NCBI GenBank assembly: GCA_016182905.1
Contig: JACPFR010000059.1
Coordinates: forward strand, 1 to 58,699
DNA from: Elusimicrobiota bacterium
Lineage (GTDB): Bacteria > Elusimicrobiota > Elusimicrobia > UBA1565 > UBA9628
DNA length: 58,699 nucleotides
Direction of reading: 5' to 3'
Shown: in pieces, positions 20,067-40,676 of the stretch
How positions within the stretch are numbered: the first letter of the stretch is position 1
Layout of the letters: each line of letters begins with the position of its first letter
The notes under the pieces: model-generated
The model's database searches: none
Told to the model about the DNA's origin: nothing
What the model saw: only the letters and a program-made list of their open reading frames with translations
Translations under genes and position numbers: made by a program

Positions 20067-20522
20067 CTACGCGTTGAAGCGGCCGATCTCGCCGGGCTTG
20101 CGCAGCATCTTGTTGACCTCGTCGAGGTGCAGCTCCTCGTTGACGATCAGCTCGCGCGCGTACTCCTCGAGCAGGACGGACTTGCCCTCGGACACCTTCA
20201 GCAGGTCGTTGTAGGCCTTCAGCGCGGCGCTCTCGTGATCGAGGCTCTCGCGCAGTATGTCGCCGATGTCGTGCTTCTCGGTCTCGAGCAGGGGGCCGAT
20301 CTTGAGCGACGGATGGCCGCCGAACAAGGTCACGAGCTCTCCGGCCTTGTGCGCGTGGGCGAGGCTCTCGTCGGCGTTGCCCTTGAGCCAGGAGACGATG
20401 GGCAGGCGGTTGTAGCCGTACACCATCAGCGAGTAGTGCGTGTAGCGCACGACGCCGGCCAGCTCGAGCTCCATGATCCGGTTGAGGATGACGACGGCCT
20501 TCTTCTTGTCCTGATCGTTCAT
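20067..20522 (-). CDS. Bacterioferritin-like ferritin, paralogue 1
   Basis: A 151-residue four-helix ferritin-like protein for iron storage or detoxification. Hand alignment with bacterioferritin shows the ligands Glu20 (IMELELAG), the helix B His (LAHAHKAGE), a helix C Glu (LDHESAALKAY) and the helix D Glu-x-x-His (NEELHLDEV). The helix B ligand Glu (Glu51 of E. coli Bfr) reads Ser, with Glu one residue earlier, and the haem-binding Met52 reads Leu, so the ferroxidase site may be altered and haem absent. An AAGGAG site lies 8 nt before the ATG at 20522. A paralogue at 29191-29646 brackets the siderophore operon on the other side. Confidence 0.85.
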   Translation of the reverse strand: MNDQDKKKAVVILNRIMELELAGVVRYTHYSLMVYGYNRLPIVSWLKGNADESLAHAHKAGELVTLFGGHPSLKIGPLLETEKHDIGDILRESLDHESAALKAYNDLLKVSEGKSVLLEEYARELIVNEELHLDEVNKMLRKPGEIGRFNA

Positions 20523-20627
20523 TGGGAATCTCCTTGTTTCCGCCCTGTCCGGCCGCATCGACTGTAGAACTTCTCGAGCCGCGGCGTCGAGTCATGATTA
20601 TGCGAACGGGCTCCCGATTCTGCGCCC

Positions 20628-20679
20628 TTGACCTCGTCCGGCTTATTGAGATACAATCTCAATTGAGACTTAGTCTCAA
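20628..20679 (+). promoter_or_regulatory. Siderophore operon promoter with tandem Fur-like boxes
   Basis: TTGACC (20628-20633), an 18-bp spacer and TACAAT (20652-20657). Two 17-bp palindromes of the form TTGA-N9-TCAA follow directly head to tail: 20646-20662 covers the -10 and 20663-20679 covers the predicted start. Occupancy would block transcription, as expected for Fur repression in iron-replete cells. Confidence 0.75.
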
Positions 20680-20694: not shown

Positions 20695-20919
20695 ATGAGC
20701 CGAATGCTGGCGGAGCGACGCGACGGCGGGCCGGGCATGGTGTCTCTCTGCGACGGCTGCGAGGACGTCCATATCCGGTGGGGCGAGCTGACCTTGTCCC
20801 TGGGCCGGAGCCGGTTCCTCGAGCTGGTCCGGATGCTGAACGAGGCGGCGCGCCTTATAGGCGTCGAGCCGCGCCGGGCGGACGCGGGCGCGGAGCGGGG
20901 GGCGGCATGGACGCACTGA
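20695..20919 (+). CDS. Small Cys-x2-Cys protein leading the siderophore operon
   Basis: A 74-residue cytoplasmic protein that I cannot assign. The N-terminal half contains SLCDGCEDVHIRWGELTLSL, a CxxC motif followed by a His, then a helix LELVRMLNEAARLI. The cysteines could bind a metal. It is preceded by a strong GGGGGAG ribosome site and the Fur-boxed promoter, and its end overlaps the NIS synthetase start by 13 nt. It is therefore co-expressed with siderophore genes and may be an accessory or iron-sensing protein. Confidence 0.7.
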   Translation: MSRMLAERRDGGPGMVSLCDGCEDVHIRWGELTLSLGRSRFLELVRMLNEAARLIGVEPRRADAGAERGAAWTH

Positions 20920-22676
20920 GCCCCGCCGACCGGGAGGTCGTCGACCGGCTCTTCAACGCGGCCTGGCGCGAGGGCTACGCTCAGGACCGCGGCCTGCGCC
21001 CGAACATGAGCGGCGAGGGGAGCTGGGCGACGGTGCGGCTGGCCGACGGCCGGGCGCTCGTGGCCGGCGTGGCGTCGATCGGCGCTTTGGACTGGGTCCG
21101 GACGCAGCCTCCTTATTATGTGCGCCCGGACGCGGGAGCGGCGCCCGAGCCCGTGACGTCGGTGTCGCAGGTGGTCGACCTGTGGGACGACGGCTCCTCC
21201 GGCTTCGGACGCTTTCGCGACGAGGTCATGCAGAGCGCGGCCAATCTCGGGATGATCCTCGAGGCGTCGGACGCGCGCGCCCTCTCCTTCGCCGGCGGCG
21301 CCGAGGGCCTCATCGCTCTGGCCCACGATGGCCGGGCCGCGCTCGAGGGCGTCCCTCCGGAGGCGTGGCTCGAGGGCTGGATCCTCCGGGGACATCCGTT
21401 CCACCCCGGCTGCAAGACGCGCTCGGGCTTCGACGCGGCCGACATGGCCCGCTACTCGCCCGAGCTGGGCCTGGAGCTCGACGCCCGCTTCGTCGCGGTG
21501 CGCCGCTCGCATCTGGTCGAGCGCCGGGCGCCCGGAGCCAAGGAGGATTGGCCCGCGAGCTGGCGCGAGGGGGTCGCTCGGGAGCTCGGCTCCCGCGGGC
21601 TGGCCGCGGGCGGCTTCGGCGTGCTTCCGGCTCATCCCTGGCAGTTCGAGAACTCCTTGCCGCGGATCTTCGCGCGGGAGATCGAGGCCGGCGTCGTCGT
21701 GCCGCTCGAGTTCCGCGCTCCGGTCCGGCCTCTCGTCTCCTTGAGGACCTTGGTCCCGGTGGGGGAGCCCGGCGCCTGTCACCTCAAGGTGCCCCTCGCC
21801 ATCCAGGCGACGAGCGCCCAGCGCACGGTCTCGGCGCCGTCGGCGGAGAACGGCCCGGCTTTCTCCACCTGGATCGAGGCCGCGCGCGCGGACCTTCTTT
21901 GGTCCGGCCTATGGGAGCTGCAGTCGGAGGAGCGCGGCCTTCATTACTGGGATCCGGGAGCGGACCCGCGCGACGCCGCGGCCCTGGAGAAAGCGCGGCA
22001 CCTGTCGTTCCTGTGCCGCCGCCCGCCGTCTCCGGCCGGCGGCCGGCTCGTTCCCGCGGCCCTGCTGCCCGAGCGTTCGCCCGTCGACGGCAAGCCCGTG
22101 GTCCGGGAGCTGCTCGAGCTCTACGGGGCGGGCATCGGCTGGTTCTTCTACGACTACGCCGCGCTGACCTTGCGCGCGATCCTGCCGCTGGCGCTGCGCG
22201 AGGGGATCGCCCTCGAGGCGCACGCCCAGAACTGCCTCGTGCGTTTTCAAGCGGGCGCGCCGGTCTCGCTGGTGCTCCGGGACCTGGGCGGCCTCCGCGT
22301 CCTGCCCGAGTGGGCGGGCGCGGCCGGGCGCGGCCTCGCCCTGCATCCCGGGACCTTGATCAAGGCGGAGTCGCCGCGCGACCTCGTCTCCAAGATCCAC
22401 CATACCTGGCTCCACAATCATCTCGCCCCGCTCGCCCGCGCGCTCGCCGACTGCGGGAACGTCCCGGAACAGGTGCTTTGGGCGGGGGCCCGCGCCGCGG
22501 CGCGCTGCGTGTTCGACGAGGCGGCCCGGTCCGCGCCCCCGGGCCGCGCCGAGGCCCTGCGCGAGGCGTTCTTCGCCCCGCTCGCGCGCGTGAAGGCCCT
22601 GACGCGCATGCGCCTCGCCGGAAAATACTTCCAGTACGACTTCGCCGAGGTGTCCAATCCCCTCCATGAGGCGTAG
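20907..22676 (+). CDS. IucA/IucC family NRPS-independent siderophore synthetase
   Basis: A 589-residue NIS synthetase, which joins a carboxylic acid such as citrate or a derivative to an amine or alcohol using ATP. Hallmarks are GHPFHPGCKTRSGF in the ATP-binding lobe, HPWQFENSLP, HLKVPLAIQATSAQR, EAHAQNCLV and the C-terminal acceptor lobe motif RDLGGLRV. The C-terminal ~60 residues are FhuF-like in general appearance. The start at 20907 overlaps the preceding gene and gives the family's usual length of ~590. It is the core biosynthetic enzyme of the operon; whether it is type A, B or C cannot be read by eye. Confidence 0.93.
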   Translation: MDALSPADREVVDRLFNAAWREGYAQDRGLRPNMSGEGSWATVRLADGRALVAGVASIGALDWVRTQPPYYVRPDAGAAPEPVTSVSQVVDLWDDGSSGFGRFRDEVMQSAANLGMILEASDARALSFAGGAEGLIALAHDGRAALEGVPPEAWLEGWILRGHPFHPGCKTRSGFDAADMARYSPELGLELDARFVAVRRSHLVERRAPGAKEDWPASWREGVARELGSRGLAAGGFGVLPAHPWQFENSLPRIFAREIEAGVVVPLEFRAPVRPLVSLRTLVPVGEPGACHLKVPLAIQATSAQRTVSAPSAENGPAFSTWIEAARADLLWSGLWELQSEERGLHYWDPGADPRDAAALEKARHLSFLCRRPPSPAGGRLVPAALLPERSPVDGKPVVRELLELYGAGIGWFFYDYAALTLRAILPLALREGIALEAHAQNCLVRFQAGAPVSLVLRDLGGLRVLPEWAGAAGRGLALHPGTLIKAESPRDLVSKIHHTWLHNHLAPLARALADCGNVPEQVLWAGARAAARCVFDEAARSAPPGRAEALREAFFAPLARVKALTRMRLAGKYFQYDFAEVSNPLHEA

Positions 22677-23814
22677 GGACTTCGCGCTGGTCTGCGCCGG
22701 ACAGATGCTGGGGCTCGCGGCCCTGGAGGCGGGCCTGTGCGCCACGCCGGCGGTGCTGGCGTCCCTCGGCGCGGAGTCGGACGCGAGCCTGGTGTTTTGG
22801 ACGGGCCTCTCGCAGTGCGCGGCCGCCGGGTTCGCCATCGTCGCGATCCCCGTCTGGGGCCGCGTCGGCGACCGCGTCGGGCGGGGGCGGATGCTGGTTC
22901 GCGCCCAGGCGGGCCTGGCCGCCGCGCTGGCGCTGATGGCCTTGGCGCGGTCGCCTTGGCAGGTGGTCTTGTCGCGCGCGCTGCAGGGCGCCTTCGCGGG
23001 GACCACGCCCGCGGCGCTCGCTTTGGTCGCGGGCGGCGCCGACGGCGCCCGGCTCATGGGCTGGGTCCGGTCGTACGGCCTGGCCGGGGCGGTGGCCGGG
23101 CCCTTGCTCGGAGGACTGCTCCTGCCTTTCACCGGCGCGACCGCGCTGTTCGTCGGCGGCGCCGTCGTCTGCGCGGTCTTGGCGGCCGCGTCCTGGGGCG
23201 TGCGCGAGGAGCCCGCCGCGTCCGCGCCCCGCGTCGCCGCCGCCGGCCCCGGCCGTCTTTACGCGGCGTCCGCCGGGCTGGCCTTCTTCCGCGGCTTGGA
23301 GGATCCGCTGCTGCCCGTGGTCGCGAGGACTCTCGCGCCCGGGTCGTGGGTCGCGCTGTCCGGCGCGGGCTTGTCCGTCAGCCGCGGGGTCCAGGCGCTG
23401 GTCTCGCCTTGGTGGGGCCGCGAGTGCGAGCGGCGGGGCCTTCGATCCGTCCTCGCCTTCTGCGCGCTCGGGGCGGGAACGTTCACCGCCGCGCAAGCGC
23501 TGGCGGGAACGCCCGGAACGCTTCTCGCCGCGCGCGCGGCGCTCGGCTTCTTCGCGGCGGGCGCCGTCGCGGCGCTGTACGCCGCCGCGGGCGAAGCCGG
23601 CGAGCGGCGGGGCGAGGCCGTGGCCTGGACCGCGAGCGGCCTGCGTCTGGGCGGCGCGGTCGCCGCGGGCGCGGCCGGCCCTCTCGCGGCTTTGGTCGGC
23701 ATCCCCGCGACCTTGATCGCGGCCGGCGCCGGCGTCGCCGCCGTTCCGCGCCTCGTTTTCCGCCGTGAAGATAAGGAGGAAGCATGCGCCGTTTCTTGTT
23801 CGACTGGCACCTGA
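22666..23814 (+). CDS. MFS transporter, probable siderophore exporter
   Basis: A 382-residue major facilitator with about 12 hydrophobic helices. The canonical loop 2-3 motif reads GRVGDRVGRGRM, and a proline- and glycine-rich helix 5 (RSYGLAGAVAGPLLGGLLLP) is typical of drug:proton antiporters. The gene overlaps the NIS synthetase by 11 nt, the usual arrangement for exporters of the freshly made siderophore. The next gene begins inside its last 31 nt. Confidence 0.88.
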   Translation: MRRRDFALVCAGQMLGLAALEAGLCATPAVLASLGAESDASLVFWTGLSQCAAAGFAIVAIPVWGRVGDRVGRGRMLVRAQAGLAAALALMALARSPWQVVLSRALQGAFAGTTPAALALVAGGADGARLMGWVRSYGLAGAVAGPLLGGLLLPFTGATALFVGGAVVCAVLAAASWGVREEPAASAPRVAAAGPGRLYAASAGLAFFRGLEDPLLPVVARTLAPGSWVALSGAGLSVSRGVQALVSPWWGRECERRGLRSVLAFCALGAGTFTAAQALAGTPGTLLAARAALGFFAAGAVAALYAAAGEAGERRGEAVAWTASGLRLGGAVAAGAAGPLAALVGIPATLIAAGAGVAAVPRLVFRREDKEEACAVSCSTGT

Positions 23815-26800
23815 CGCTCGGTAAATCCGCCGGCGCCCTCATCCTGATCTGGAGCGCGAGCGGCGCGCTGATGATCCTCGATCCCATCGCGCGGCGCGCG
23901 TTCGACGCGGAGATCCCGAAGATCGAGGCCGTTCCCGTCGACGGCGCTCGCTTCACCTTTCCCGTCTCCCGTCTTCCGGTCGACGGGGCCTCGGCCGTCG
24001 CGCTGCGCTCGTTCGACGGCCGCTCCTGGTACGAGGCGCGCTGGCCCGACGGCCGCGTCGCGGGCTTCGACGCCGCGACCGGCGCTCCGGTCCCGGCCGA
24101 GATCGGGCCGGACGAGGCGCGCGTCCGCATCGCGAAGGCGCTGTCTCCGGGATGGACCGCGCTCGGGGTCGACCGGCTGACGGCCAACGACGATCACTAC
24201 CGCCCGACGGACTTCCCGGCGTACCGTCTTACGCTCGCCGGTCCCGGCGCGCCGGTGCTGTACCTGTCGTCGCGCGACGGCTCGGTGCTCAAGACCACGA
24301 CGCGCCTGTCCCGCGCCGCGCGCTGGCTCGGCATGGGCGTGCACGCCTGGAATCCCGAGGCGCTCAAGCGCTCGTTCGACACGCCGCGCCGCTGGGCGCT
24401 GGCCTTGCTCGTGGCCCTGCCTTTGTTCCTGCTGGCCGCGGTCTCGTACGCCTTGCTCTGCCTCCGGAACGAGGGCTCGCCCGTCCAAGCCGATAAGCCG
24501 AAGCGCGTCGTCGCCGCGCTCGTCGCCGCGGCGCTGATCGCGGGCATGCCGGGTGCGGCCTCGGCTCAGGCCCTGGCCCGGGTCGCGCTGCCGCGAGCCG
24601 GCGCGCCCCTGACGCCGTCGCTGGCCGTTCCGGGGCCCGGCGCGCCGATGCTCCCGGCGTCCTTGCCCGGAGTCCCGGCCCTCTCCGTTCCGCCGCCCGC
24701 GCTCGCGGCTCCGGCGCTCGTCGCGCCCGTGCCCGTCGCGCTCGCCGCCGCGGCCGTCGTTCCGGCGGCGGCCCGCCCCGCGGCGCCGCGCGCGAAGCTT
24801 GCCGCCGCGCTCGCGCCCGCTTTCGCCGTCGACGCGCGCGTCCCGCTGGAATACCAGGTCTCCGGCGGCCGCGCCGCGTTCGACGGCGTCGTCTCGAGAG
24901 AGGAAGGCTCGCCCGTCCCGGCGGAGGCCTTCGTCTCCCGGGCGAGCGGCTTGTCCGCGGCGTCCGTCCCCGAGCGTCCCCTTCCGCCCGCGGCGGCGAA
25001 GCCCGCCGCGCCGCGCGGCCCCGACCGCAAGGCGCTGTGGGGCATCTACGTCACCCACGCCGCGCACCTGTTCACGATGTCGGCCGCGTGGCGCGTGGCC
25101 TGGCCGCTGCTCGTCATCGACCTCGCCGGCAAGGCGAGCCTCGCCGCCATCGGCTCGGGCGTCGCCCTCGTCGAGATGGGCACCGGCCTCGTCGCCGGCA
25201 TGATCGTCGACCGTCTCCTGCCCCGCAAGTCCATGGCCGGCGCGGCGGTCGCGCGCGCGGCCATCGCGGTCGGGCTGTACGCCGCCGCCTCCGCGGGCGG
25301 CATAGGCTTCCCGCTGCTGTTCGGCGCGTTCCTGGCGCACAGCTTCGCCCTGACCACGATCCACATCGGACAGTCCTCGGCGGCGCCGGCCGCCGCCGGC
25401 GACGCGCCCGGGGCGCTGCGCCGCGTCAACTCGACGCTGAAGATCGTGACGGCGGCCGTCTCGATCCCGGGCTCGTTGCTCGGCGGCTGGGCGGTCGCGT
25501 CGCTGGGCGTGCCCGGCGCCTTGCTCGCCTACGCCGCGGCGAACCTCCTCGTGCTGGCGCCGCTCTACTCCTGGCTCATGCCCGGGACGACGGCGGCCGC
25601 TCCCGCGCCCTCGGCCGTCGTCGAGCCGCCGGCCGGGCCGAAGCGCGCGCCGGGCCTCTGGGAGGCGGCGAAGCTGATCTTCACGAACAAGATCCTGGCC
25701 GCCGCGCTGATCGCGATGGCCGCCGGCGTCGTCTTGGTCGAGCCTCTGCGCAGCACGACCTTGCCGATACTCGCCAGCGACCTGTCTCCCGCCTCGGCGG
25801 CGATGCTCCTCGGGAGCTTCCAAGCCGCGTTCTACGCCGGACAGTTCGCGGGCAACTTCGGCCTGCTCAAGTGGGGCGAGAGGCTGTCGAACCGCTCCTG
25901 GATACTGCTGGGAGGGGCGGGCCTGCTGTCCTTCGGCTTATTCGCGCTCGCGCCGGTCCACGTCGCGTTCGCCTTCGCCGCCGCGGCGCTCATCGGCCTG
26001 CTGACCCAGCCCCTGTCGGTCGTGGCCAAGACCGTTTTTCAAGAGGAAGTCCGCCGCCTGCGGCCGGATCTGCTCGGCCGCGCGATGGGCGTCAACAATC
26101 TCTTCTATCGTCTCGCCGTGAGCGCGGGCACGGCGCTCGTGGGCTGGACGGCGGTGGCGGGAGCGGCCTTGGCCCTCGGCGCGACCGGGACCTTGGCGGC
26201 CGTGTACGGCGGCGTCGCCGTCGCGCTCGCCGCGGCCGTGTTCCGGCTCATGCGCCGTCCGGCGCCGGCGGCGTTGGCGGCGGGCGTTCTTCCGGCCCCG
26301 GCCGCGCCCGACTTCCGCGGCTCGCGCGAGATCGCGCGGGACGAGGCCGCCGAGAAGCTCGAGGCCGCCGGCCTGCCCGCGATGCTGGCCGGACAAGGAT
26401 TGACGATGTGGCACGTCCTGCGTCATCGCGGACGCGGCGGCGAGCAGGTGCACCTGACCTTCGGCCTTCCTCCGGACGGCCGTCCGTTCGAGCGCGGCGG
26501 CGGCGACCCCGCCCGGCGCGAGGAGCTCGAGCGCCGCCTCGAGTCGTCCGCGGCGCGCATCACGGCTCTCGTCGCCGAGACGCTCGGCGTCGATCCGGCG
26601 AGCGTCGTCCTGCACGAGCGCCTCGTCGAGGGCTGCTGCGGCGCCGGCTGCCAGTCGTGCCTCCTCGGCGACGGCGAGTCGAAGCACGCGAAGACCTGGA
26701 CCGGGCTCGATCGCGGTCCGGCCGCCGCGGCCGCCGTCGCGTTCCTTCCGCTCGCCGCGGCGCTGCCCGCGGGCGCGTTCGAGTGGCACATGTTCGCCGG

Positions 26801-28217
26801 GACGGCTTTCGGCGTCGTCGCGCTGATCTACGCGGTCACGGGCACGATCAGCCTGCTGACGCAGCCCATCAAGTCCCTGTTCGACCCCGGCCTGCCAGCC
26901 GCGCCCGAGGTCGTCGTGGATCCCCGCCGGTTCCCGCTGTCCCCGGCGCAGGCGGCCGAGGCGCTCACCGCCGAGGAACGCGTCGCGCTCAAGCCCGGGA
27001 TGCCGCTGCTGCGCGCGGCGGCCGGCTCGCCGCAGCGGCGTTGGTACGAGTTCCAGACGGCCGACGGCCGGACGATCGAGGTGCACGCGCGCACGGGGCG
27101 CCGGCTGGTCTCCCCGCGCGGCGCGGCCTTCGCGCGCGGACAGGTGAACCGCTGGCTCGCCGGCACCCCTTGGAAGGCGGCGGGACCGGCGAAGCTCGTC
27201 ACGGTCCAGGGCGAGTACTACCGCAAGGGGGAACTGCCCCATTATCAGGCGGACCTGGAGGGACCGGGAGGCTGGCAGGTCTTCGTGTCCGCCAAGGACG
27301 GCCGGATCCTCGAGGTCCACTCGCGCCTCTCGCGGACGCTCAAGTGGGTCGGCAAGGGCCCGCACGCCTGGGGCATCAAGGCGCTCGACAAAGTGGACAC
27401 GCTCAAGCGCCTGCTCGCGCCCCTGCTGCTGGGCGTGCCGGTCCTGGCGCTCGCGGTCACGGCCTTCTGGCTCAAGGCCAGCCGCGGCTTCCCGCTCGAG
27501 TTGCCCGCCCTATCGGACGGCGCCTGGGCGTGGCATAAGTTCTTCGGCTCGTGGTCCTTGCTCGTCCTTCTCTACATGGGCGTGACCGGGCCCTTGACCC
27601 TGTTCATGCCGATCGCGACGAAGAAGCTGACGCCGAAGCTGCCGAAGGGCGGGAGCCTCGCGCCCGAGGCCTTCGTCCTCTCGCCGTCGGAGGCCGCGTC
27701 GCGCCTGCCGGCGGGAGCGGCGCCCGCGCGGGTCCAGGCGCGCTCCTCCCGCCGCCGCGCCTGGTACGAGTTCGAGCTGGCGGACGGCTCGCGCCGCGCG
27801 GTCTCGGCCGCCGACGGAAGCGAAGTCCCGGTGTTCATGACCGCGGCCGAGGTCGAGGCTGAAGCGCGCGAGTGGCTCGCCGGCTCGCCGTGGACGCCGA
27901 AGCCGGGCGCCGTCTTCCTCGAGTCCCACGACTCCCATTACAAGGATTTCCGCGAAGCGGAGATCCCCGTCTACAAGCTCGAGCTCGAGGGGCCCGGCGG
28001 CCTGCGCGTGTACCTGTCGGCGCGCGACGGCCGCCTCACGAACTCCGGGATGTCCGTGCGTTCGCGCCTGTCCCGCTTCCTGGGGACCTTCGTGAAGTCC
28101 GTCCACGCGCTGGAGTGGGGGCCGTTCGCGCGGCATCCGAACCTGCGCCGCGTGGTCATGATCCTCTTCCTGACCTTGCCGGTCGCGCTCACGGTCGTTC
28201 TGGGGCTGCTGGCGTGA
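23784..28217 (+). CDS. Giant PepSY-TM / MFS / Cys4 / PepSY-TM / PepSY-TM fusion protein
   Basis: A single 1477-codon frame. Residues 1-230 are a PepSY-TM module (FDWHLTLGKSAGALILIW, ending with VHAWNPEAL). A second export-signal-like helix and an Ala/Pro-rich linker (240-410) follow. Residues 417-825 form an MFS domain with about 12 helices and loop motif DRLLPRKS. A soluble segment then carries Cys951, Cys952, Cys956 and Cys959. PepSY-TM modules 2 (about 995-1235; EWHMFAG, PHAWGIKAL) and 3 (1245-1477; WHKFFGS, VHALEWG) complete it. The module pairs of histidines are typical haem ligands. PepSY-TM proteins such as FoxB are haem-dependent ferric-siderophore reductases, so transport and reduction appear joined in one polypeptide. 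The ATG follows AAGGAGGAAGC and overlaps the MFS exporter by 31 nt. The architecture is unfamiliar to me. Confidence 0.9.
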   Translation: MRRFLFDWHLTLGKSAGALILIWSASGALMILDPIARRAFDAEIPKIEAVPVDGARFTFPVSRLPVDGASAVALRSFDGRSWYEARWPDGRVAGFDAATGAPVPAEIGPDEARVRIAKALSPGWTALGVDRLTANDDHYRPTDFPAYRLTLAGPGAPVLYLSSRDGSVLKTTTRLSRAARWLGMGVHAWNPEALKRSFDTPRRWALALLVALPLFLLAAVSYALLCLRNEGSPVQADKPKRVVAALVAAALIAGMPGAASAQALARVALPRAGAPLTPSLAVPGPGAPMLPASLPGVPALSVPPPALAAPALVAPVPVALAAAAVVPAAARPAAPRAKLAAALAPAFAVDARVPLEYQVSGGRAAFDGVVSREEGSPVPAEAFVSRASGLSAASVPERPLPPAAAKPAAPRGPDRKALWGIYVTHAAHLFTMSAAWRVAWPLLVIDLAGKASLAAIGSGVALVEMGTGLVAGMIVDRLLPRKSMAGAAVARAAIAVGLYAAASAGGIGFPLLFGAFLAHSFALTTIHIGQSSAAPAAAGDAPGALRRVNSTLKIVTAAVSIPGSLLGGWAVASLGVPGALLAYAAANLLVLAPLYSWLMPGTTAAAPAPSAVVEPPAGPKRAPGLWEAAKLIFTNKILAAALIAMAAGVVLVEPLRSTTLPILASDLSPASAAMLLGSFQAAFYAGQFAGNFGLLKWGERLSNRSWILLGGAGLLSFGLFALAPVHVAFAFAAAALIGLLTQPLSVVAKTVFQEEVRRLRPDLLGRAMGVNNLFYRLAVSAGTALVGWTAVAGAALALGATGTLAAVYGGVAVALAAAVFRLMRRPAPAALAAGVLPAPAAPDFRGSREIARDEAAEKLEAAGLPAMLAGQGLTMWHVLRHRGRGGEQVHLTFGLPPDGRPFERGGGDPARREELERRLESSAARITALVAETLGVDPASVVLHERLVEGCCGAGCQSCLLGDGESKHAKTWTGLDRGPAAAAAVAFLPLAAALPAGAFEWHMFAGTAFGVVALIYAVTGTISLLTQPIKSLFDPGLPAAPEVVVDPRRFPLSPAQAAEALTAEERVALKPGMPLLRAAAGSPQRRWYEFQTADGRTIEVHARTGRRLVSPRGAAFARGQVNRWLAGTPWKAAGPAKLVTVQGEYYRKGELPHYQADLEGPGGWQVFVSAKDGRILEVHSRLSRTLKWVGKGPHAWGIKALDKVDTLKRLLAPLLLGVPVLALAVTAFWLKASRGFPLELPALSDGAWAWHKFFGSWSLLVLLYMGVTGPLTLFMPIATKKLTPKLPKGGSLAPEAFVLSPSEAASRLPAGAAPARVQARSSRRRAWYEFELADGSRRAVSAADGSEVPVFMTAAEVEAEAREWLAGSPWTPKPGAVFLESHDSHYKDFREAEIPVYKLELEGPGGLRVYLSARDGRLTNSGMSVRSRLSRFLGTFVKSVHALEWGPFARHPNLRRVVMILFLTLPVALTVVLGLLA

Positions 28218-29194
28218 ACTTCACGCTGGAGGCGATCAAGCGCGCGGCGGAGGGGCGCGGCGTCTCGTGGTCCTATCCCGCCGGCCGGGAGAACGACGAG
28301 TTCCTGACCTTGCATTTCGGGGGCCGGGCCGTGACCGTTCAAAAGACGCGGACGCCGTTCATGTCCGCTCTCGCGCTCAAGCTCAGCACCGATAAATTCC
28401 TGAGCGGCGCGCTGCTGGCCGAGGCCGGCCTGCCCGTCCTGCCCAAGCGGCTCTGCGTCTCCGCCGGGCGCGAGGAGCTCCGCTTCCTGGAGGAGCACCG
28501 CGCTCTTGTCGTCAAGCCCAACGCCTGCGACCGCGGCGTCGGCGTCACCGTCGGCGTGCGCGACCCCGAAAGGCTGGCGAGCGCGGTCGCCGGCGCACTC
28601 ATCAGGGGGCCCGCGCTGCTCGAGCCCCAGTTCGACGGCCGGGAGCTGCGCGTGCTGGTCATCGGCGGGCGCTTCGCGGCCTGCTATGAACGCGTCGCCG
28701 CGGGCGTGACCGGCGACGGGGAAAAGTCGGTCGGCCGTCTCCTCGACGATGCGAACTCCGACCCGCGGCGAGGTTCGCTCGTCAAGGGAAGCGCCCTCGC
28801 TTCGATCGGGATCGACGCGGAACTCGACGAGGCCCTCGCCGGGCAGGGCCTTAGGCTCGATTCCGTCCCGGCGGCCGGGCGGAGGGTCCGCCTTCGCGGT
28901 CCCGCGAACATCTCCCTCGGCGGCGAGGCGCTGGACCGCACCGACGACCTGCATCCCGACTACGCCGCGGCCGCCGAATGCGCGGCCATGGCCCTGGGAG
29001 TCGACGTCGCGGGAGTCGACTTCATCTGCGGCGATCCGGCCGCGCCCCTTCGCGGGCCCGGGGACGGCGTCATCCTCGAGGTGAACAGCATGCCGGGAGT
29101 GCGGGGGTTCCTCTTTCCCAGCCGCGGACGGCCACGTCCGGTCATCGAGGCGTACCTCGACTACCTCCAGGCCCGGCTCGACTCCGCCGTTTAG
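28214..29194 (+). CDS. ATP-grasp ligase related to cyanophycin synthetase
   Basis: A 326-residue ATP-grasp enzyme. ATP-binding and metal-binding motifs are clear: LVVKPNACDRGVGVTVGV, GDGEKSVGRLLDDAN, ANISLGGEALDRTDDLHPD, AGVDFIC and ILEVNSMPGV. The order and wording match the ATP-grasp half of cyanophycin synthetase and GshAB, which form amide bonds through acyl phosphates. No Mur-ligase half or arginine-adding part is present. The GTG at 28214 overlaps the stop of the giant fusion (GTGA), so it belongs to the siderophore operon. A role in adding an amino acid or amine to the siderophore is inferred. Its stop shares TTAG with the convergent bacterioferritin gene. Confidence 0.88.
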   Translation: MNFTLEAIKRAAEGRGVSWSYPAGRENDEFLTLHFGGRAVTVQKTRTPFMSALALKLSTDKFLSGALLAEAGLPVLPKRLCVSAGREELRFLEEHRALVVKPNACDRGVGVTVGVRDPERLASAVAGALIRGPALLEPQFDGRELRVLVIGGRFAACYERVAAGVTGDGEKSVGRLLDDANSDPRRGSLVKGSALASIGIDAELDEALAGQGLRLDSVPAAGRRVRLRGPANISLGGEALDRTDDLHPDYAAAAECAAMALGVDVAGVDFICGDPAAPLRGPGDGVILEVNSMPGVRGFLFPSRGRPRPVIEAYLDYLQARLDSAV

Positions 29195-29646
29195 GGGCGG
29201 TAGGGCCCGATGTCGCCGGGCAGCCGCAGCATCTTGTTGACCTCGTCGAGGTGAAGCTCCTCGCTGACGACCATGTCGCGCGCGTACTCCTCGAGCAGGA
29301 CGGACTTGCCCTCGGCGAGGCTCAGCAGCTCGTTGTAGGCCGCGAGCGCGGCCCTCTCGTGGTCGAGGCTCTCGCGCAGGATGTCGCCGATGTCATGCTT
29401 CTCGGTCTCGAGGAGAGGGCCGATCTTGAGCGAAGGATGGCCGCCGAGCAAGGTCACGAGCTCTCCGGCCTTGTGCGCGTGCGCGAGGCCCTCGTTCGCG
29501 GCGCCCTTGAGCCAGGAGACGATGGGCAGGCGGTTGTAGCCGTAGACCATCAGCGAGTAGTGCGTGTAGCGCACGACGCCGGCCAGTTCGAGCTCCATGA
29601 TGCGGTTGAGGGTGATCACCGCCTTCTTCTTGTCCTGCGTGTTCAT
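29191..29646 (-). CDS. Bacterioferritin-like ferritin, paralogue 2
   Basis: A 151-residue close paralogue of the product of 20067-20522. The same ligand pattern is visible, and the helix B position equivalent to Glu51 of Bfr reads Gly here, again with a neighbouring Glu (NEGLAHAH). The sequence around the start (an ATTCCC spacer after AAGGAG) is also conserved between the two, consistent with a recent duplication. Its promoter (TTGCAT-N17-TATTAT, 29740-29712) is sandwiched by two Fur-like boxes. That suggests repression by iron, the opposite of what a simple iron store would need. Confidence 0.87.
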   Translation of the reverse strand: MNTQDKKKAVITLNRIMELELAGVVRYTHYSLMVYGYNRLPIVSWLKGAANEGLAHAHKAGELVTLLGGHPSLKIGPLLETEKHDIGDILRESLDHERAALAAYNELLSLAEGKSVLLEEYARDMVVSEELHLDEVNKMLRLPGDIGPYRP

Positions 29647-29695: not shown

Positions 29696-29746
29696 TTGAA
29701 ATCGCATCTCAATAATAGCACAGGTCTTATTGAAATGCAATCTCAA
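29696..29746. promoter_or_regulatory. Divergent control region with two Fur-like boxes
   Basis: The boxes TTGA-N9-TCAA lie at 29696-29712 and 29730-29746. On the minus strand TTGCAT (29740-29735), a 17-bp spacer and TATTAT (29717-29712) drive the bacterioferritin-like gene, with a start near 29705. The porin/P19 operon starts at 29824 on the plus strand; its own -35/-10 is not obvious, but the boxes are well placed to control it too. Confidence 0.7.
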
Positions 29747-31488: not shown

Positions 31489-32384
31489 CGCGGGGAAGAG
31501 CCGGGCTCGCCGCGGCGGCGGCGGTCCTCCTCGCGTCGGCGGCCGGACTCGGCGCGCGCGCCGAGGCGCCCTCGAAGTACGCGGCCATGACGGAGGAGAT
31601 CGGCGTCCTGCTCGACGAGGCGCTCGGCCGGTACAAGAAGGGAGACGTGGAAGGCGCGAAGCGGAAGACCGAGACGGCGTATTTCGAGGTGTTCGAGAAC
31701 CTCGAGGGGCCGATCCGGATCAACGTCTCGGCGCAGGCCAACTACGAGCTCGAGGAGGAGTTCACGGTGATCCGGGCGATGTTCGCGCGCAAGGAGCCCG
31801 TCCCGGCGGTCGCGGCGAGGATCGCGGCCTTCATGCCGCGCCTCAGGCGCGTCGTTCCGCGGCTGGAGGGCGGCGTCGAGCTGACGGCCGCCGGCGTCGA
31901 CGACGAGGCGCCCTCCCCGGCGGCGGGGGCGGACGGCATCGCGCCGGCGTGGCTCGAGGTCCGCAAGAACATCGAGGCCGGGCTCGCCGGCGCCCTCGAG
32001 GCGTATGAGCGGGGGGACAAGGCGAAGGCCGCGGACCTCGTGAGCCGGACGCTCCACGAGCATTACAACAACGGCGTCCTCGAGGTCGCGATCCGCAGCC
32101 ACGTCTCACAGGCCCGGAACTTCGACCACGCGTCCAGGTTCTCCGACGTCGAGGGGCTGATCAGGTCCGGCGCGGACGCGGCGAGCGTGTCGGCGAGCAT
32201 GAGCGCTCTCCTCGACGAGCTGCGCAAGGACCTCCGCGGCCTGCCCCTCGTCGCGGGAGCCGTCCCGGCGAAGACGGCGGCCGCGGCGGCGGAGCGGGAT
32301 TGGAGGAGGACCGCGGCCGGCCTCTTCCGGAAAGCGAAAGAGGCGGCGCGGCGCGCGATCGGCATGGGAGGCGGCAACAGATGA
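31485..32384 (+). CDS. Stand-alone FTR1-like periplasmic domain
   Basis: A 299-residue secreted protein (signal peptide to ARAEA). Two repeated helical units follow: LGRYKKGDVEGAKRKTETAYFEVFENLEG near residue 45, then LEAYERGDKAKAADLVSRTLHEHYNNGVLEV near residue 170. This two-unit layout is that of the extracytoplasmic N-terminal domain of FTR1/FetM-type iron permeases, as in Campylobacter Cj1658 and E. coli FetM. The membrane permease part with its REGxE motifs is absent: the protein ends with a charged helix. It overlaps the porin and p19 genes by 4 nt on each side. Confidence 0.75.
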   Translation: MTRGRAGLAAAAAVLLASAAGLGARAEAPSKYAAMTEEIGVLLDEALGRYKKGDVEGAKRKTETAYFEVFENLEGPIRINVSAQANYELEEEFTVIRAMFARKEPVPAVAARIAAFMPRLRRVVPRLEGGVELTAAGVDDEAPSPAAGADGIAPAWLEVRKNIEAGLAGALEAYERGDKAKAADLVSRTLHEHYNNGVLEVAIRSHVSQARNFDHASRFSDVEGLIRSGADAASVSASMSALLDELRKDLRGLPLVAGAVPAKTAAAAAERDWRRTAAGLFRKAKEAARRAIGMGGGNR

Positions 32385-32911
32385 AGAAGAGTGTCTCGGT
32401 CTTATTGCTGCTCGGGGCGTTCGCCTCGGGCTCGGCGTTCGCGTACGAGGAACGGATCAAGGAGTACCCGATCGGGACGGCCAAGGAGATCAACCGCATG
32501 CGGGTCGCCGCCGTCTACCTGCTGCCGATCGACATGGAGCCCAGGGGGATGGATCTGCCTCAGTCGCAGGCGGACGTCCATCTCGAGGCGGACATCCACG
32601 CATCGAGGGGGAACCTGAACGGCTTCGGCGCCGGCGAGTGGATCCCTTTCCTCAAGGTCTCGTACACGCTGGTGAACGTCGATACCGGAGAGACGAAGTC
32701 CGGCACGTTCATGCCGATGGTCGCCAAGGACGGGCCGCACTACGGCAGCAACGTGAAGATGATGGGCGCCGGGAACTACACGCTCACCTTCGTGATCGAT
32801 CCCCCGTCCAAGCAGGGATTCGGGCGGCATACCGACGTCGCCACGGGCGTCGGAAAATGGTTCCAGCAGTTCGCGGTGAACTATTCCTTCAAGTGGGTCC
32901 CGATCAAATAG
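32381..32911 (+). CDS. P19/FetP-type periplasmic iron-uptake protein
   Basis: A 176-residue periplasmic protein of the P19/Tp34 family, which binds copper and iron and supports ferrous uptake in Campylobacter (P19) and uropathogenic E. coli (FetP). The signal peptide ends at GSAFAYEE. The candidate metal ligands are visible: His and Glu in ADVHLEADIH, Met and His in FMPMVAKDGPHYGSN, and His in GFGRHTDV. The C-terminal aromatic strand (AVNYSFKWV) is also typical. The ATG at 32381 overlaps the preceding stop (ATGA). Confidence 0.92.
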   Translation: MKKSVSVLLLLGAFASGSAFAYEERIKEYPIGTAKEINRMRVAAVYLLPIDMEPRGMDLPQSQADVHLEADIHASRGNLNGFGAGEWIPFLKVSYTLVNVDTGETKSGTFMPMVAKDGPHYGSNVKMMGAGNYTLTFVIDPPSKQGFGRHTDVATGVGKWFQQFAVNYSFKWVPIK

Positions 32912-32920
32912 GACGATGAG

Positions 32921-34333
32921 ATGATCTCATCGCTCGCGGACGTCGTCGGCGCGTTCACTCCTCTCGCGTTCATCGCCGGGTTGATCCTGGCTTCGCGGCC
33001 GCTGCGCGACGGGCGCAGGACCTCGCGCTCCGCGCTGGCCGCCGTCGGCGCCGGTTTGACGGCGGCCGTGCCGGTCTGCGCGTTGGCGGCCCGCGGCGGG
33101 AACCTCCTCGCGGCGCGCGTGCTCCTCGATGCGGCGGCCATCGTCGCGGCGTTCGCTCACGCGGCCGCGTTCCTTCTGCCGGAGAACCGCCGCATCCGCG
33201 CGGGAGCCGAGGTCTTCTTCCTGGCCGCGCTGGCGGCGGCGTCCATGGTCTCCTTCCTCAGTTTGATGGACGAACGCGGCATCTCCTCGTTCGCGGTCAT
33301 CAATACCGAGCTGCTGTTGAACGCGGGCGCCGTCTTCTTCGGAGCGTGCCTGATCGCCTGTTTGACTCCAGTGACGGCGAACGCCGCTCCGAAAAGCGGG
33401 AACCGGGTCATCGTCCGCTGCCTGCTCGCCGCGTCGGCGCTCGTCGTCGTCCCCCGGCTCGCGGACGTCCTGCTGGGCCTCATGCGCCTCAAGGCGATCG
33501 AGGTGACGGGGGGGCTCCTGTCCTTCGCGGCCAAGACGAACATGTTCGCCGCCGCCGTCCCGTACCTGCAGCTCGCCATGGCGGCCGGGTTGGCGGCGGC
33601 CTACGCGCGGCGGCGGAGCGTCTTCCCGGCGGGGGAGCTGTCGATGTCGAGCGCGCAAAGACGGCAGGCGCTCGCCGTCGAGCGGAGCGAGGCGCGATGG
33701 GTCCGCGGCTCGGCGGCGCTCGTGTGCGCGGCGCTGGCGGCGCTGCTCGCGCACGACCTTTACGCCGGCAGGCCCGAGAAGATCACCCGCCCCGTGAGGC
33801 TCGAGGCGGACGCACGGGGCTTCATCCGGGTCAAGACCGCCTCCGTCGCCGACGGCGACCTCCATCGCTTCTCCTACGTGACCGACGACGGCCATGTCGT
33901 CCGCTTTCTCCTCATCAAGCTGGAAGGCCTCGTGAAGAAGAGCCGCATCGGGGTGGTGTACGACGCGTGCGTGATGTGCGGGGACAAGGGCTATATCCAG
34001 CGCAAGCGGGAGGTGATCTGCCTCGCCTGCAACGTCCGGATCTTCAACCCGTCGATCGGCAAGGAGGGCGGGTGCAACCCCATCCCGCTGAAGCACGCGG
34101 TCGAGGGGGAGCACGTCGTGATCGCCGCGGAGGAGCTGACGCGGGGCGCCAAACACTTCTCGCAGGTCGTGTCGATAACGGTCAAGGACCCGGTGACGGG
34201 CAAGGAGCTGGACTCGCTGAAGGCGCCCGCCCGCCACGAATACCGGGGGGCGAATTATTTCTTCGAATCCGAGGCGTCGCAGGCCCGCTTCATGGCTTCG
34301 CCGGAGAAATACGCCCGGAAGCCGCTCCCCTAG
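32921..34333 (+). CDS. DUF2318 Fe-S-type membrane protein with C-terminal YHS domain
   Basis: A 470-residue inner-membrane protein. About eight hydrophobic helices cover residues 8-285. An extracytoplasmic DUF2318 domain follows with the Cys set YDACVMCGDKGYIQRK, then ICLACNVRIFNPS and GGCNPIPLKH. Members in fet/Cj1660 loci are thought to bind a metal or Fe-S centre. The last ~50 residues are a YHS domain (VKDPVTGKELDS, then YFFESEASQARFMASPEKYA), a small metal-binding fold normally found in copper or metal-transport proteins. The fusion of DUF2318 with YHS is uncommon to my knowledge. It lies between p19 and the ABC permeases, as in the known loci. Confidence 0.87.
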   Translation: MISSLADVVGAFTPLAFIAGLILASRPLRDGRRTSRSALAAVGAGLTAAVPVCALAARGGNLLAARVLLDAAAIVAAFAHAAAFLLPENRRIRAGAEVFFLAALAAASMVSFLSLMDERGISSFAVINTELLLNAGAVFFGACLIACLTPVTANAAPKSGNRVIVRCLLAASALVVVPRLADVLLGLMRLKAIEVTGGLLSFAAKTNMFAAAVPYLQLAMAAGLAAAYARRRSVFPAGELSMSSAQRRQALAVERSEARWVRGSAALVCAALAALLAHDLYAGRPEKITRPVRLEADARGFIRVKTASVADGDLHRFSYVTDDGHVVRFLLIKLEGLVKKSRIGVVYDACVMCGDKGYIQRKREVICLACNVRIFNPSIGKEGGCNPIPLKHAVEGEHVVIAAEELTRGAKHFSQVVSITVKDPVTGKELDSLKAPARHEYRGANYFFESEASQARFMASPEKYARKPLP

Positions 34334-34335
34334 AT

Positions 34336-35622
34336 ATGTTCCTCGCCATGGTCAGGCAGTCGTTCCTGAGGGGCCGCCGGCGGAAGGCCCTGGCCGTCGC
34401 GACGATCATACTCGCCGCGAGCCTCATCACCGCGCTCATGAACCTGTCCATCGGCGTCGGCGACAAGATGGCCAAGGAGATGAAGTCCTACGGCGCGAAC
34501 ATCACGGTCGCGCCGAACAGCGAGAGCATCTCGCTCGACATCGACGGCGTCGATTTCAATCCGTTGAAGGGCCAGGTGTTCCTCGAGGAGCGCGACCTGC
34601 CGAAGATCAAGGATATCTTCTGGCACAACAACATCATCGGGTTCGCTCCCTTCCTGAAGGTCGCAGCCGAGGTCGCCGGAGCGGACGGTCCGGTGCCCCT
34701 CCTCGGGACGCGGTTCGATGTGCCGCTGCTCCTCTCCGAGGACGAGGAATTCCGGGTCGGGGTGAGGGCCATCAACCCCTATTGGCAGGTCCGCGGCCGC
34801 TGGCCCGAGGACGAGGACCGCGCCGGCGTGCTCGCCGGCGCGGAGCTCGCGCGCCGGCTCCGCCTCGACGTCGGCTCCCGGATCGCCGTCAGGATGCCCG
34901 GGGCGGAAAGGCTCGTGACCGTGAACGGCATCCTCCATACGGGCGGGCCGGAGGAGTCCTTCCTCGTCGCGCCGCTGCCGCTGGTGCAGGAGCTCGCCTC
35001 GCTGCCCGGCAAAATCCAGAACGTCAGCGTGAGCGCCTTGACCGTGCCGGAGGACCGCCTGTCCCGCAGGACCCGCAACGGCTCCGACGCCCTGGACGCG
35101 CTGGAGTACGACCTCTGGTACTGCACCGCCTACGTGAGCTCGATCGCCCATCAGATCGAGGAGGCCATCCCGAACTCGACCGTGCGTCCGATCTGGCAGG
35201 TCGCGGCCAGCGAGGGGACGGTCATCAAGAAGCTGCAGCTCCTGATGCTCGTCGTGACGGTCGCGGTGTTCATCGCCAGCGGGCTCGGCATCTCGTCGCT
35301 GATGATCACGACCATCATGGAGCGGTCGCGCGAGATCGGGCTCATGAAGGCGCTCGGCGCCTCCGAGGCGGAGGTGCATCTCCTGTTCCTCGCCGAGTCC
35401 GTGGTCGTCGGCGGCGTCGGCGGCCTGCTGGGATGCGCGGGAGGGGCGGCCCTCTCGCAGGTCATCGGGCTGTCGATCTTCGGCTCGACCGTCGCCTTCA
35501 ACCCCGTCGCCGTCCCGGTCGGCGTCGCGGTCTCGGTGCTGATCGCGCTCGCCGGGTCGCTCATGCCGGCGAGGCTGATCTCCCGGCTCCATCCAGCGGA
35601 GGTGCTCCATGGGCGGAGATAA
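34336..35622 (+). CDS. FtsX/MacB-like ABC permease of the P19 locus (1)
   Basis: A 428-residue permease with one N-terminal helix (KALAVATIILAASLITALM), a ~220-residue extracytoplasmic MacB-like domain (KMAKEMKSYGANITVAPNSE onward) and three C-terminal helices. The intracellular FtsX motif is MERSREIGLMKALGA. It corresponds to Cj1661/FetB of the known P19 loci. An ATG at 34348 (MVRQSFLRG) is a plausible alternative start. It overlaps the second permease by 14 nt. Confidence 0.9.
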   Translation: MFLAMVRQSFLRGRRRKALAVATIILAASLITALMNLSIGVGDKMAKEMKSYGANITVAPNSESISLDIDGVDFNPLKGQVFLEERDLPKIKDIFWHNNIIGFAPFLKVAAEVAGADGPVPLLGTRFDVPLLLSEDEEFRVGVRAINPYWQVRGRWPEDEDRAGVLAGAELARRLRLDVGSRIAVRMPGAERLVTVNGILHTGGPEESFLVAPLPLVQELASLPGKIQNVSVSALTVPEDRLSRRTRNGSDALDALEYDLWYCTAYVSSIAHQIEEAIPNSTVRPIWQVAASEGTVIKKLQLLMLVVTVAVFIASGLGISSLMITTIMERSREIGLMKALGASEAEVHLLFLAESVVVGGVGGLLGCAGGAALSQVIGLSIFGSTVAFNPVAVPVGVAVSVLIALAGSLMPARLISRLHPAEVLHGRR

Positions 35623-36775
35623 GACCGGCGTCATGACGAACCGGCGGATGTTCGTCCGGATCCTCGCCGCGTCGCTCAAGGAGCGCCGCAGCCGCGTCTC
35701 GATCGCGTTCTTCTCGATCATGATCGGCGCCTCGGTCATCACCGCGCTTTCCTGCGTCCATTTCGACGTATCGGCGAAGATGAGCCGCGAATTGAGGGCG
35801 TACGGGGCGAACGTCTTCATCGGCCCGAAGGACCCCTCCGTCGCGCGCGTCCTGGACGCGCGCGTCGTCGCCGAGGCGCTCTCCCTGCTGCCGGCGAAGA
35901 ACATGGTCGGCGCGTCGCCCTACCTTTACGGCGTCGTCAGGCTGGACCTGGGAAGCGCCGTCCTCGCCGGGGTCGATTTCTCCGGCCTGCGGCGCCTGTC
36001 GCCTTACTGGCAGGTCGACGGCCGGTGGATCGTCGTCGATTTCGACGACCGCTCGTGCATGATCGGCAGAGCCCTCGCCAAGAGGATGGAATTGAAGGCC
36101 GGAGACAGCGTCACGGTGACGAAGAACGAGACCGGATTCCACCGCAAGCTGAGGATCAAGGGCGTCGTGGAGACGGGGCAGGCCGAGGACGAGCGGATCT
36201 TCGTGAACCTCGCCCTCGCCGGCCGGATCCTGGGCCAGCCCGGAAAGGTCAACCACGCCATGGCGAGCGTCGTGTCGGAAGGCGCCGACATCGGCGCGGC
36301 GGCGGCGGGGATCGGCGCCCGTTTCCCCGGCCTCGAGGCGAGGCCGATACGGAGGATATCGTACTCCGAAGGGAAGATCCTCGATAAGATCAAGGGGCTG
36401 ATGGTGCTGATCGCGCTCATCGTGCTCATGGTCACGACGCTCTGCGTCATGACGACCTTGATCGCGATCGTCGCGGAGCGCACGCGGGAGATCGGGCTCA
36501 TGAAGGCGATCGGCGCGGATGACCGCGGCGTCGCGGTCCAGTTCCTGTCCGAGGCGCTGGTGATCGCCCTCGCGGGGATCGCCGCGGGCCTGGCCGCGGG
36601 ATTCGGCCTCGCGCAGGTCCTAGGGCAGGCCGTCTTCGGCTCGCGGATAGCGTTCCGGGCGGAGGTGCTGCCCGTGACCATCGTCCTGTCGCTGTTCGCC
36701 GCCCTGATCGCCGTCGCCTTGCCGCTGAAGATGGCCGTCCGCGTCGTGCCCGCGCAGGTCCTCAAAGAGGAGTAG
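35609..36775 (+). CDS. FtsX/MacB-like ABC permease of the P19 locus (2)
   Basis: A 388-residue permease with the same layout as its neighbour: an N-terminal helix (VSIAFFSIMIGASVITALS), a shorter periplasmic domain (MSRELRAYGANVFIGP) and three C-terminal helices with ERTREIGLMKAIGAD. It corresponds to Cj1662/FetC. The two permeases would form a heterodimer that transmits ATP-driven motion to the periplasm, as in MacB or LolCDE, rather than acting as a classical importer. The start ATG at 35609 overlaps the preceding gene; an in-frame ATG at 35633 is the alternative. Confidence 0.9.
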   Translation: MGGDKTGVMTNRRMFVRILAASLKERRSRVSIAFFSIMIGASVITALSCVHFDVSAKMSRELRAYGANVFIGPKDPSVARVLDARVVAEALSLLPAKNMVGASPYLYGVVRLDLGSAVLAGVDFSGLRRLSPYWQVDGRWIVVDFDDRSCMIGRALAKRMELKAGDSVTVTKNETGFHRKLRIKGVVETGQAEDERIFVNLALAGRILGQPGKVNHAMASVVSEGADIGAAAAGIGARFPGLEARPIRRISYSEGKILDKIKGLMVLIALIVLMVTTLCVMTTLIAIVAERTREIGLMKAIGADDRGVAVQFLSEALVIALAGIAAGLAAGFGLAQVLGQAVFGSRIAFRAEVLPVTIVLSLFAALIAVALPLKMAVRVVPAQVLKEE

Positions 36776-36783
36776 GAGAGAAT

Positions 36784-37437
36784 ATGCCGCAGCTGATGCT
36801 CGAAACGAAGGATCTCACGAAGCGGTTCGGGAAGGTGACGCCTCTCGACCGGGTGAACATGCAGGTCGAAAGCGGGGAGTGGGCGTCCATCATGGGCCCG
36901 TCGGGCTCCGGGAAGACGACGATGCTCAACATCCTGTCCTGCCTCGATTCCTCGACGGAGGGACGCTACATCCTCGACGGGACCGACACCTCCCGCCTGA
37001 CCGAAAGGCAGCGCGTGGCCGTCCGGCGGGAGAAGATCGGCCTCATCTTCCAGCAGTTCCATCTGATCCCGTACCTGTCCGCGCTCGAGAACGTCATGCT
37101 GGCCCAGTATTACCACAGCACCATCGACAAGCGCGAGGCGAAGGAGGGGCTCGCGCGCGTCGGCCTGGGCCACCGGATCCATCACCTTCCTTCCCAGCTG
37201 TCGGGAGGCGAGCAGCAGCGGGTCTGCATCGCGCGGGCGCTGATCAACGAGCCCTCGATCGTCCTCGCCGACGAGCCCACGGGCAACCTGGACGAGGCGA
37301 ACGAAAGGATCGTGCTCGATCTGTTCAAGGACCTTCGCGCCCAGGGAAGGACGATCGTGCTCGTCACGCATAATCCCGAGATCGCGCGGTTCTCCGACAA
37401 GGTCGTCCGGCTCCATCACGGGAAGATCGAAGCGTAG
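36784..37437 (+). CDS. MacB/LolD-type ABC ATPase of the P19 locus
   Basis: A 217-residue ATPase with Walker [11 protein letters not shown] (about residues 39-48), signature LSGGEQQR, Walker [14 protein letters not shown] and the switch VLVTHNPE. The X-loop and length match MacB/LolD ATPases (Cj1663/FetD). It powers the two upstream permeases and is the last gene on this strand. The thioredoxin genes (fetE/F) that end the known loci are missing; two thioredoxin-fold genes lie 3.4-4.6 kb further on, on the opposite strand. Confidence 0.95.
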
Positions 37438-39864: not shown

Positions 39865-40676
39865 GAACGACCTCCTTTAGTGATCACGACGGGTGTTCCG
39901 GTATCGAAAAAAGACAGTCCTCGGAAGGACGGGGGGGTCTTTCCGAGGACGAATAAAGCGGTGGACCAGGCGTCGGCCTCGGCCGCGCTGGGCAGGACGG
40001 CGGCGGCGGAGCCGGGGCGCCGTACGGCCTTGCCGTCGAAGGGGTCCTTGATGTGGCCGGGGCGCTCGCTGTCGCCGGACACCGACACGGACGCGTCCTT
40101 CACTATCAAGGACTCGGCCCGGCCGGGGAGGGCCACCGGCCATTCGCCGAGGGCGAGAACCTGGCCGCCGAAGTTGAACAGCGCGCGCGAAACGCCGGCT
40201 TCCTTCAGGACCGCCGCGGCTTTGTCGAGCGCCCGGCCCTTGCCGATGCCGCCGAAGTCGAGGCTCATGCCCGCGGGCAGCTCGACCGTGAGGGCCTTCG
40301 GGTCGAGGCGCACCTTGCTCCAGCCGTCTCGGGCGATCGTCGGGTCGAAGGCTCCGCCGGTCTCCCGGGCCAGCCGCAGGGCTTCCTCCGCCGCGGCGTA
40401 CAGGTCGGCGGAGACCCTCGCCGGACCCGTTCCGGCCGTGCGGTTGAGCGCCGAGGCCTCGCTTTCCTTTTTATAGAGGCTCAGGACGCGGTCCCAGCGC
40501 TCGATCTCGGCGAAGGCGGCGCCGACGGCGGCGTCGGACGCGCCGGGGGCGTCGATCTCGCACAAGGTCCCCATGACCCAGCGCACGCGCCGCGCGCGTC
40601 CGATATCCGCGCCGAACGCGTGCGCCGCGAGCGAGAGGAGGAGGGCGGAGGACAGCGCCTTTTTATTGAGAATCAT
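39861..40676 (-). CDS. apbE: FAD:protein FMN transferase
   Basis: A 271-residue exported enzyme that moves FMN from FAD to Thr/Ser of flavoproteins. Motifs are GTLCEID, the DPTI region, LDFGGIGKGRALDKAA, FNFGGQV, and the C-terminal PSAAEADAWSTALFVLG with the metal-site Asp. The N-terminal hydrophobic segment (LSSALLLSLAAHAFG) targets it to the periplasm. The ATG at 40676 lies inside a Fur-like box; TTG codons at 40685 and 40682 are alternative starts. It leads the operon with a porin, an FMN-binding protein and a 4-TM protein. Confidence 0.93.
   Translation of the reverse strand: MILNKKALSSALLLSLAAHAFGADIGRARRVRWVMGTLCEIDAPGASDAAVGAAFAEIERWDRVLSLYKKESEASALNRTAGTGPARVSADLYAAAEEALRLARETGGAFDPTIARDGWSKVRLDPKALTVELPAGMSLDFGGIGKGRALDKAAAVLKEAGVSRALFNFGGQVLALGEWPVALPGRAESLIVKDASVSVSGDSERPGHIKDPFDGKAVRRPGSAAAVLPSAAEADAWSTALFVLGKTPPSFRGLSFFDTGTPVVITKGGRS

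Follow-up and report, generated by a model that had tools for sequence, protein, structure and literature searches.

FoxB/PiuB-type reductases (FoxB, FpvG, FhuB of B. cenocepacia and HiuB) consist of two PepSY modules with two TM helices each. In each module one histidine is located where the first helix begins and another before the second helix, the first helix contains an (S/T)G motif, and the genes are situated in siderophore loci. FoxB, FhuB and HiuB are without an assigned partner transporter (PMC10866019, PMC12424826), i.e. it is an open question how iron freed by PepSY-TM proteins and the stripped siderophore are handed over to the inner-membrane transporters. Two further groups of proteins are relevant here. 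Single-module PepSY proteins such as VciB are half units with two helices and one PepSY domain, and the MFS siderophore carriers of the FslB/FslD, FptX, FiuB and LbtB/LbtC types are 12-helix proteins that contain motif A and are found in NIS operons. There is also a precedent for the fusion of PepSY-TM to a functional partner, since a flavinylation survey found 1077 genes in which PepSY-TM is fused to an NAD-binding domain (PMC8238504). The partner in those genes is an electron donor, whereas in the gene described below it is a transporter.

The gene was found in a groundwater Elusimicrobia metagenome assembly (3.98 Mb in 63 contigs, 97% complete), which we call the host genome. The window, i.e. 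the whole stretch of DNA that was analysed, comprises 58,699 nucleotides of contig JACPFR010000059.1. We read the gene as three genes (A, B and C) that were fused within a probably Fur-regulated siderophore operon, working as a FoxB-like reductase and an MFS siderophore carrier, and we give this reading a rough probability of 0.6. The double PepSY-TM part (modules M2 and M3) shares the module layout, the histidine positions, the (S/T)G motif and the siderophore locus with the FoxB/PiuB-type proteins. The fused gene differs from them in its low sequence similarity, in a third half module (M1) and in the fusion to an MFS carrier and a domain with four cysteines (Cys4). A search of 341 genomes of the phylum for the parts of the gene found the double PepSY-TM part in the host and in two other genomes: G014 (JACRDP010000010.1), an 82% identical relative from the same genus, and G045 (JACPXC010000045.1), from another family of the same order, with 42-49% identity. 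The features are collected in Table 1.

Table 1. Features of the operon and of the fused gene in the window. The dN/dS values compare the host with G014 and, with one fused genome, pool selection before and after the fusion.
Feature	Position	Strand	Evidence or remark	dN/dS
Two tandem palindromic operators, TTGAGATACAATCTCAA / TTGAGACTTAGTCTCAA, Fur-like	20646..20679	.	upstream of operon, before NIS gene	
NIS siderophore synthetase, FslA-like; IucA/IucC and FhuF-like C-terminal domain	20907..22676	+	PF04183 E 3.7e-48, PF06276 E 1.6e-24	
MFS exporter, MdtG/FslB-like	22666..23814	+	PF07690 92 bits; overlaps both neighbours	
Fused gene A-B-C, 1477 codons	23784..28217	+	open frame; orthologous parts in relatives	
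M1, half PepSY-TM module, aa 1-235, H9 and H187	23784..24488	+	piecewise Pfam, module alignment	0.24
Linker, Ala/Pro-rich, aa 236-404	24489..24995	+	signal-peptide-like and hydrophobic stretches	0.68
Embedded MFS carrier, aa 405-826; motif A aa 472-482	24996..26261	+	PF07690 36.7 bits	0.15
Junction 1, gene B follows directly on the end of gene A	26262..26291	+	G014 has about 1.1 kb here, including DUF6607 gene	
Cys4 domain, homologous to gene B, with CCGAGCQSC at 26634-26660	26292..26708	+		0.11
Junction 2, B joined to C without C signal peptide and most of C linker	26709..26774	+	about 0.55 kb in G014	
M2, PepSY-TM module, H1002 and H1194	26775..27479	+	PF03929 32.7 bits	0.16
M3, PepSY-TM module, H1251 and H1441	27480..28214	+	module alignment	0.14
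ATP-grasp ligase, single-domain, cyanophycin synthetase-like	28214..29194	+	PRK14016 E 7.5e-67, under cut-off	

Architecture of the fused gene

A preliminary description of this DNA had proposed a single uninterrupted frame, and the frame is indeed open throughout. The GC content by codon position is equal on either side of both junctions, with GC3 at 0.90-0.95 along the entire gene, so there is no sign of a missed frameshift between the modules, a concern that the description itself had raised. A chance open frame in GC-rich DNA was ruled out, since the relatives have homologues of the parts as separate genes and the parts are under purifying selection.

The whole protein scores 34.9 bits with the Pfam model PF03929 (PepSY_TM, cut-off 28.8). 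When the modules are scored singly M2 passes, and M3 (20.5) and M1 (16.8) are under the cut-off. The three modules are mutually alignable with about 32% identity to M1 and share the invariant pattern WH...WYE...DG...GPG...S..DG...R.SR...H, i.e. the three PepSY-TM modules that had been proposed on account of a repeated block are homologous. One histidine lies ahead of each helix in all three modules, and the six histidines listed in Table 1 are present in 3 out of 3 genomes that carry the parts. It had also been stated that each module starts with Trp-His; the histidine is conserved, but the tryptophan is not invariant (M2 of G045 has ELH).

M1 corresponds to one half of a FoxB unit; M2 and M3 together are one full unit. 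The full unit has two PepSY modules in tandem, each with a TM helix on either side, as seen from the sequence, the hydropathy and the alignment, and has four histidines distributed on both membrane faces and conserved in all three genomes. M1 is similar to VciB and to the half modules of other Elusimicrobiota (L059-L061) in being a two-helix, one-PepSY half unit, but in 3 out of 3 genomes it is joined to an MFS carrier via an Ala/Pro-rich linker. A structure model of M2-M3 (pLDDT 64) was aligned with FoxB (7abw) using VIA-align. The alignment covers residues 995-1477 and the whole length of 7abw with Z 7.2, a value below the confidence level of the tool, and the rmsd is 10.5 over 250 residues at 12% identity. 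FoxB was absent from the best 50 Foldseek rows for the model. No FoxB sequence was matched directly, and a PDB sequence search with M2-M3 gave a weak PepSY match only. On the basis of the sequence pattern we infer that M2-M3 would hold haem and reduce ferric siderophore.

Gene A is in one frame in all three genomes (830 aa long in G014 and about 830 aa long in G045, residues 1-826 in the host). The MFS transporter that had been placed between modules 1 and 2 could be confirmed, as the excised region passes PF07690 (cut-off 33.4; the score within the whole chain is 30.7). Its motif A reads GMIVDRLLPRK in the host, and 12 helices are seen in a low-confidence structure model of gene A (pLDDT 38) that was used for the helix count alone. 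In these respects, and in its NIS operon, the embedded transporter is like the known MFS siderophore carriers; unlike them, it matches no NCBIfam MFS model and has a PepSY-TM half module at its N-terminal side. By analogy with these carriers it would carry a siderophore.

The linker of gene A has a signal-peptide-like start, followed by a fast-evolving Ala/Pro-rich stretch. The same combination occurs on genes A, B and C (the loci include L033:11407-12600 and L034:11092-11700), and in other Elusimicrobiota the matches to the MFS part often run on into this linker. The combination is worth a survey as a candidate clade-specific leader or hairpin module.

Of all parts of the fused gene, the Cys4 domain evolves most slowly. 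The CCGxGCxxC protein represents an orphan family that is clear in only four genomes of the phylum (the loci include L035:7399-7920), and no relative of the domain was found in Pfam, NCBIfam or the PDB. An FhuF-type [2Fe-2S] identity was rejected, given the spacing CCx3CxxC as opposed to CCx10CxxC in FhuF and the absence of a match to PF06276 or TIGR03951. Weak structural matches to the KH, MIF and cation-diffusion C-terminal folds were set aside as generic.

Genes B and C start with a signal peptide in the relatives (that of gene B was read by eye), and gene B would be periplasmic there. In the fused chain the C terminus of the MFS part should be cytoplasmic because of motif A and the 12 helices predicted by the low-confidence model. 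The A-C join is topologically sound, since the end of the MFS and the start of the PepSY-TM unit are both expected to be cytoplasmic. The Cys4 domain would change membrane side in the fusion because it is placed after the cytoplasmic end of the MFS. It would thus be cytoplasmic, unless the hydrophobic stretch at residues 978-1000 spans the membrane, in which case M2 would be inverted.

Separate genes in the relatives and probable origin of the fusion

In both relatives A, B and C are separate and adjoin the same two upstream genes. In G014 the NIS synthetase and the MFS exporter are followed by gene A (half PepSY-TM module, linker and MFS), DUF6607, gene B (signal peptide and CCGxGCxxC) and gene C (about 690 aa with a signal peptide, a linker and two PepSY-TM modules); in G045 the same two genes are followed by A, then C and then B. 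A conserved single-chain design is not supported, as the genes are split in the sole other carriers among the 341 genomes, which is largely the outcome that the preliminary description had named as a refutation. The one-chain A-B-C architecture was not found beyond the host in these genomes, in the contigs of GTDB species searched with a degenerate pattern or in plasmids. Ten loci with further PepSY_TM genes from the phylum were read by eye and showed no MFS in the same frame, and literature searches found no fusion of PepSY with MFS, either in the A-B-C order or in that of gene A. The earlier statement that no protein with this order has been described holds for the papers and genomes searched, among which the order itself is confined to the host. 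Gene A, in which a half PepSY-TM module is fused to an MFS, is conserved, and no description of such a protein was found in the papers searched; it is a more secure novelty than the A-B-C chain.

Junction 1 is directly after the last MFS helix (LMRR), and the DNA absent with respect to G014 includes DUF6607 and the leader of B. Junction 2 follows the WTGL-x-x-GP of B, and here the start and the leader of C are absent. Judged by this comparison, the host frame appears to be A, B and C joined by in-frame deletions, a single-genome derivative. All folded parts are under purifying selection by their dN/dS values. In the siderophore operon of G014 the DUF6607 gene itself (L033:10517-11407) has A on one side and B on the other, and the literature search found no paper on the family.

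The fused chain, seen in one metagenome-assembled contig, is probably real. An assembly error, with the genes separate in the organism and gene A alone a true fusion, seems unlikely to us. It would need two chance joins, both in frame, free of stops and located between domains (about 1 in 9 for the frames alone), although the GC-rich, Ala/Pro-coding sequence in which the junctions sit is a point in its favour. The exact repeats common to the G014 breakpoints are 6 bp at most, which is too short for a typical assembly collapse, and the codon-position composition is smooth over both joins. That the contig is a single metagenome-assembled one, that both relatives keep the genes separate and that the fusion would shift domain B across the membrane all speak for an error; on the other hand, DUF6607 was not found elsewhere in the host genome by the same search that found it in G014.

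It is still less probable that the fusion is real but the locus is decaying, i.e. that DUF6607 and the leaders of B and C were deleted and the chain as a whole has ceased to work. The loss of both signal peptides would fit such a course. The absence of DUF6607 would fit it too, but this gene is dispensable, because G045 is also without it. Likewise B would sit on the opposite membrane face, but the A-C join is sound. The low dN/dS in all domains and the intact frame argue against decay, although neither would reveal a recent event. The fused chain, seen in one genome, is probably functional.

Operon, operators and neighbouring iron genes

The siderophore operon setting that had been suggested is supported: the NIS synthetase and the MFS exporter are in the same operon, the genes of which overlap at each boundary, and Fur-like operators lie ahead. 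The start of the NIS synthetase was set by comparison with G014. The synthetase matches the FslA model with E 7e-34, and the exporter matches the MdtG and FslB models with E 4e-18 and 2e-12, respectively, all under the model cut-offs. The overlap between the fused gene and the ATP-grasp ligase is GTGA. This ligase is absent from the matching place in G014; it may amidate or extend the siderophore.

The tandem palindromes TTGAGATACAATCTCAA and TTGAGACTTAGTCTCAA are the sole exact matches to TTGAGAN5TCTCAA in the 4-Mb genome, and 0.03 matches are expected by chance in the window. TTGAGACTTAGTCTCAA is found exactly upstream of the operon in G045, and G014 has copies with one mismatch. One-mismatch copies of TTGAGA-N5-TCTCAA are also present at 29696-29712 and 29730-29746, before the second ferritin gene, and at 40666-40682. 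The related site at 40666, TTGAGAATCATTTTCAA, fits the 7-1-7 Fur pattern. Judging from these sites, the operon is probably Fur-regulated.

The operon is flanked by two ferritin-like genes on the reverse strand (20067-20558 and 29191-29643), which are direct repeats with 90.4% identity over 460 bp. At the corresponding place G014 carries a single copy. If the two genes recombine with each other, the operon could be deleted or amplified. Downstream, at 32372-37437, there are genes for a P19-like iron transport protein, an FtrD-like/YHS protein, two FtsX/MacB permeases and an ABC ATPase, which resemble a ferrous-iron uptake locus. There are 13 TonB receptor matches in the host genome.

It is quite improbable that the PepSY-TM parts reduce another substrate (e.g. 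copper) or serve another redox chain and that the MFS is unrelated to siderophores, as the NIS synthetase and exporter overlap in the operon of the fused gene, Fur-type operators lie ahead, ferritin genes flank it and G014 and G045 show the same linkage, even if the PepSY_TM protein CrpH is linked to copper and haem-copper oxidases (PMC13038864) and an SCO1/SenC gene lies 1 kb upstream.

Proposed function

If the gene works as a FoxB-like reductase and MFS siderophore carrier, the ferric siderophore would enter the periplasm via one of the TonB receptors of the genome. The M2-M3 unit would contain two bis-His haems spanning the inner membrane and would pass electrons from the cytoplasmic side to Fe(III) held in the PepSY cavity. 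Uptake of the released Fe(II) would follow, for which the P19/FtrD-type system with its genes 3-9 kb downstream is a plausible candidate, and the MFS part of A would carry the siderophore through the inner membrane in either its loaded or its stripped form. M1 may tie the MFS to the reductase, either as half of a homodimeric unit or docked to M2-M3. On the present sequence evidence the most likely arrangement would be reduction at the periplasmic face and movement of the siderophore across the inner membrane.

The preliminary description had further suggested that transport is coupled to reduction in one chain. This is plausible for gene A, because the half-PepSY-TM–MFS fusion is present in 3 out of 3 genomes, but the full 1477-residue chain is known from one metagenome-assembled contig. 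We infer that the fused chain is made; physical coupling may aid iron release or siderophore recycling. It is doubtful that the FoxB-like di-haem reductase, the PepSY-TM half unit, Cys4 and the MFS make up, in a single polypeptide, one machine with a common cycle for the reduction of the ferric siderophore and the movement of the siderophore; in such a machine Cys4 would possibly be the electron entry point on the cytoplasmic side.

The conserved PepSY-TM–MFS fusion, together with a genome that has the reductase in the same chain, would be a natural 'Rosetta stone' in which an MFS carrier is named as the partner, and this would offer a direct test of the coupling between reduction and transport. 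Although the two closest relatives have separate proteins, the three-into-one gene suggests a possible physical link between iron release and siderophore transport.
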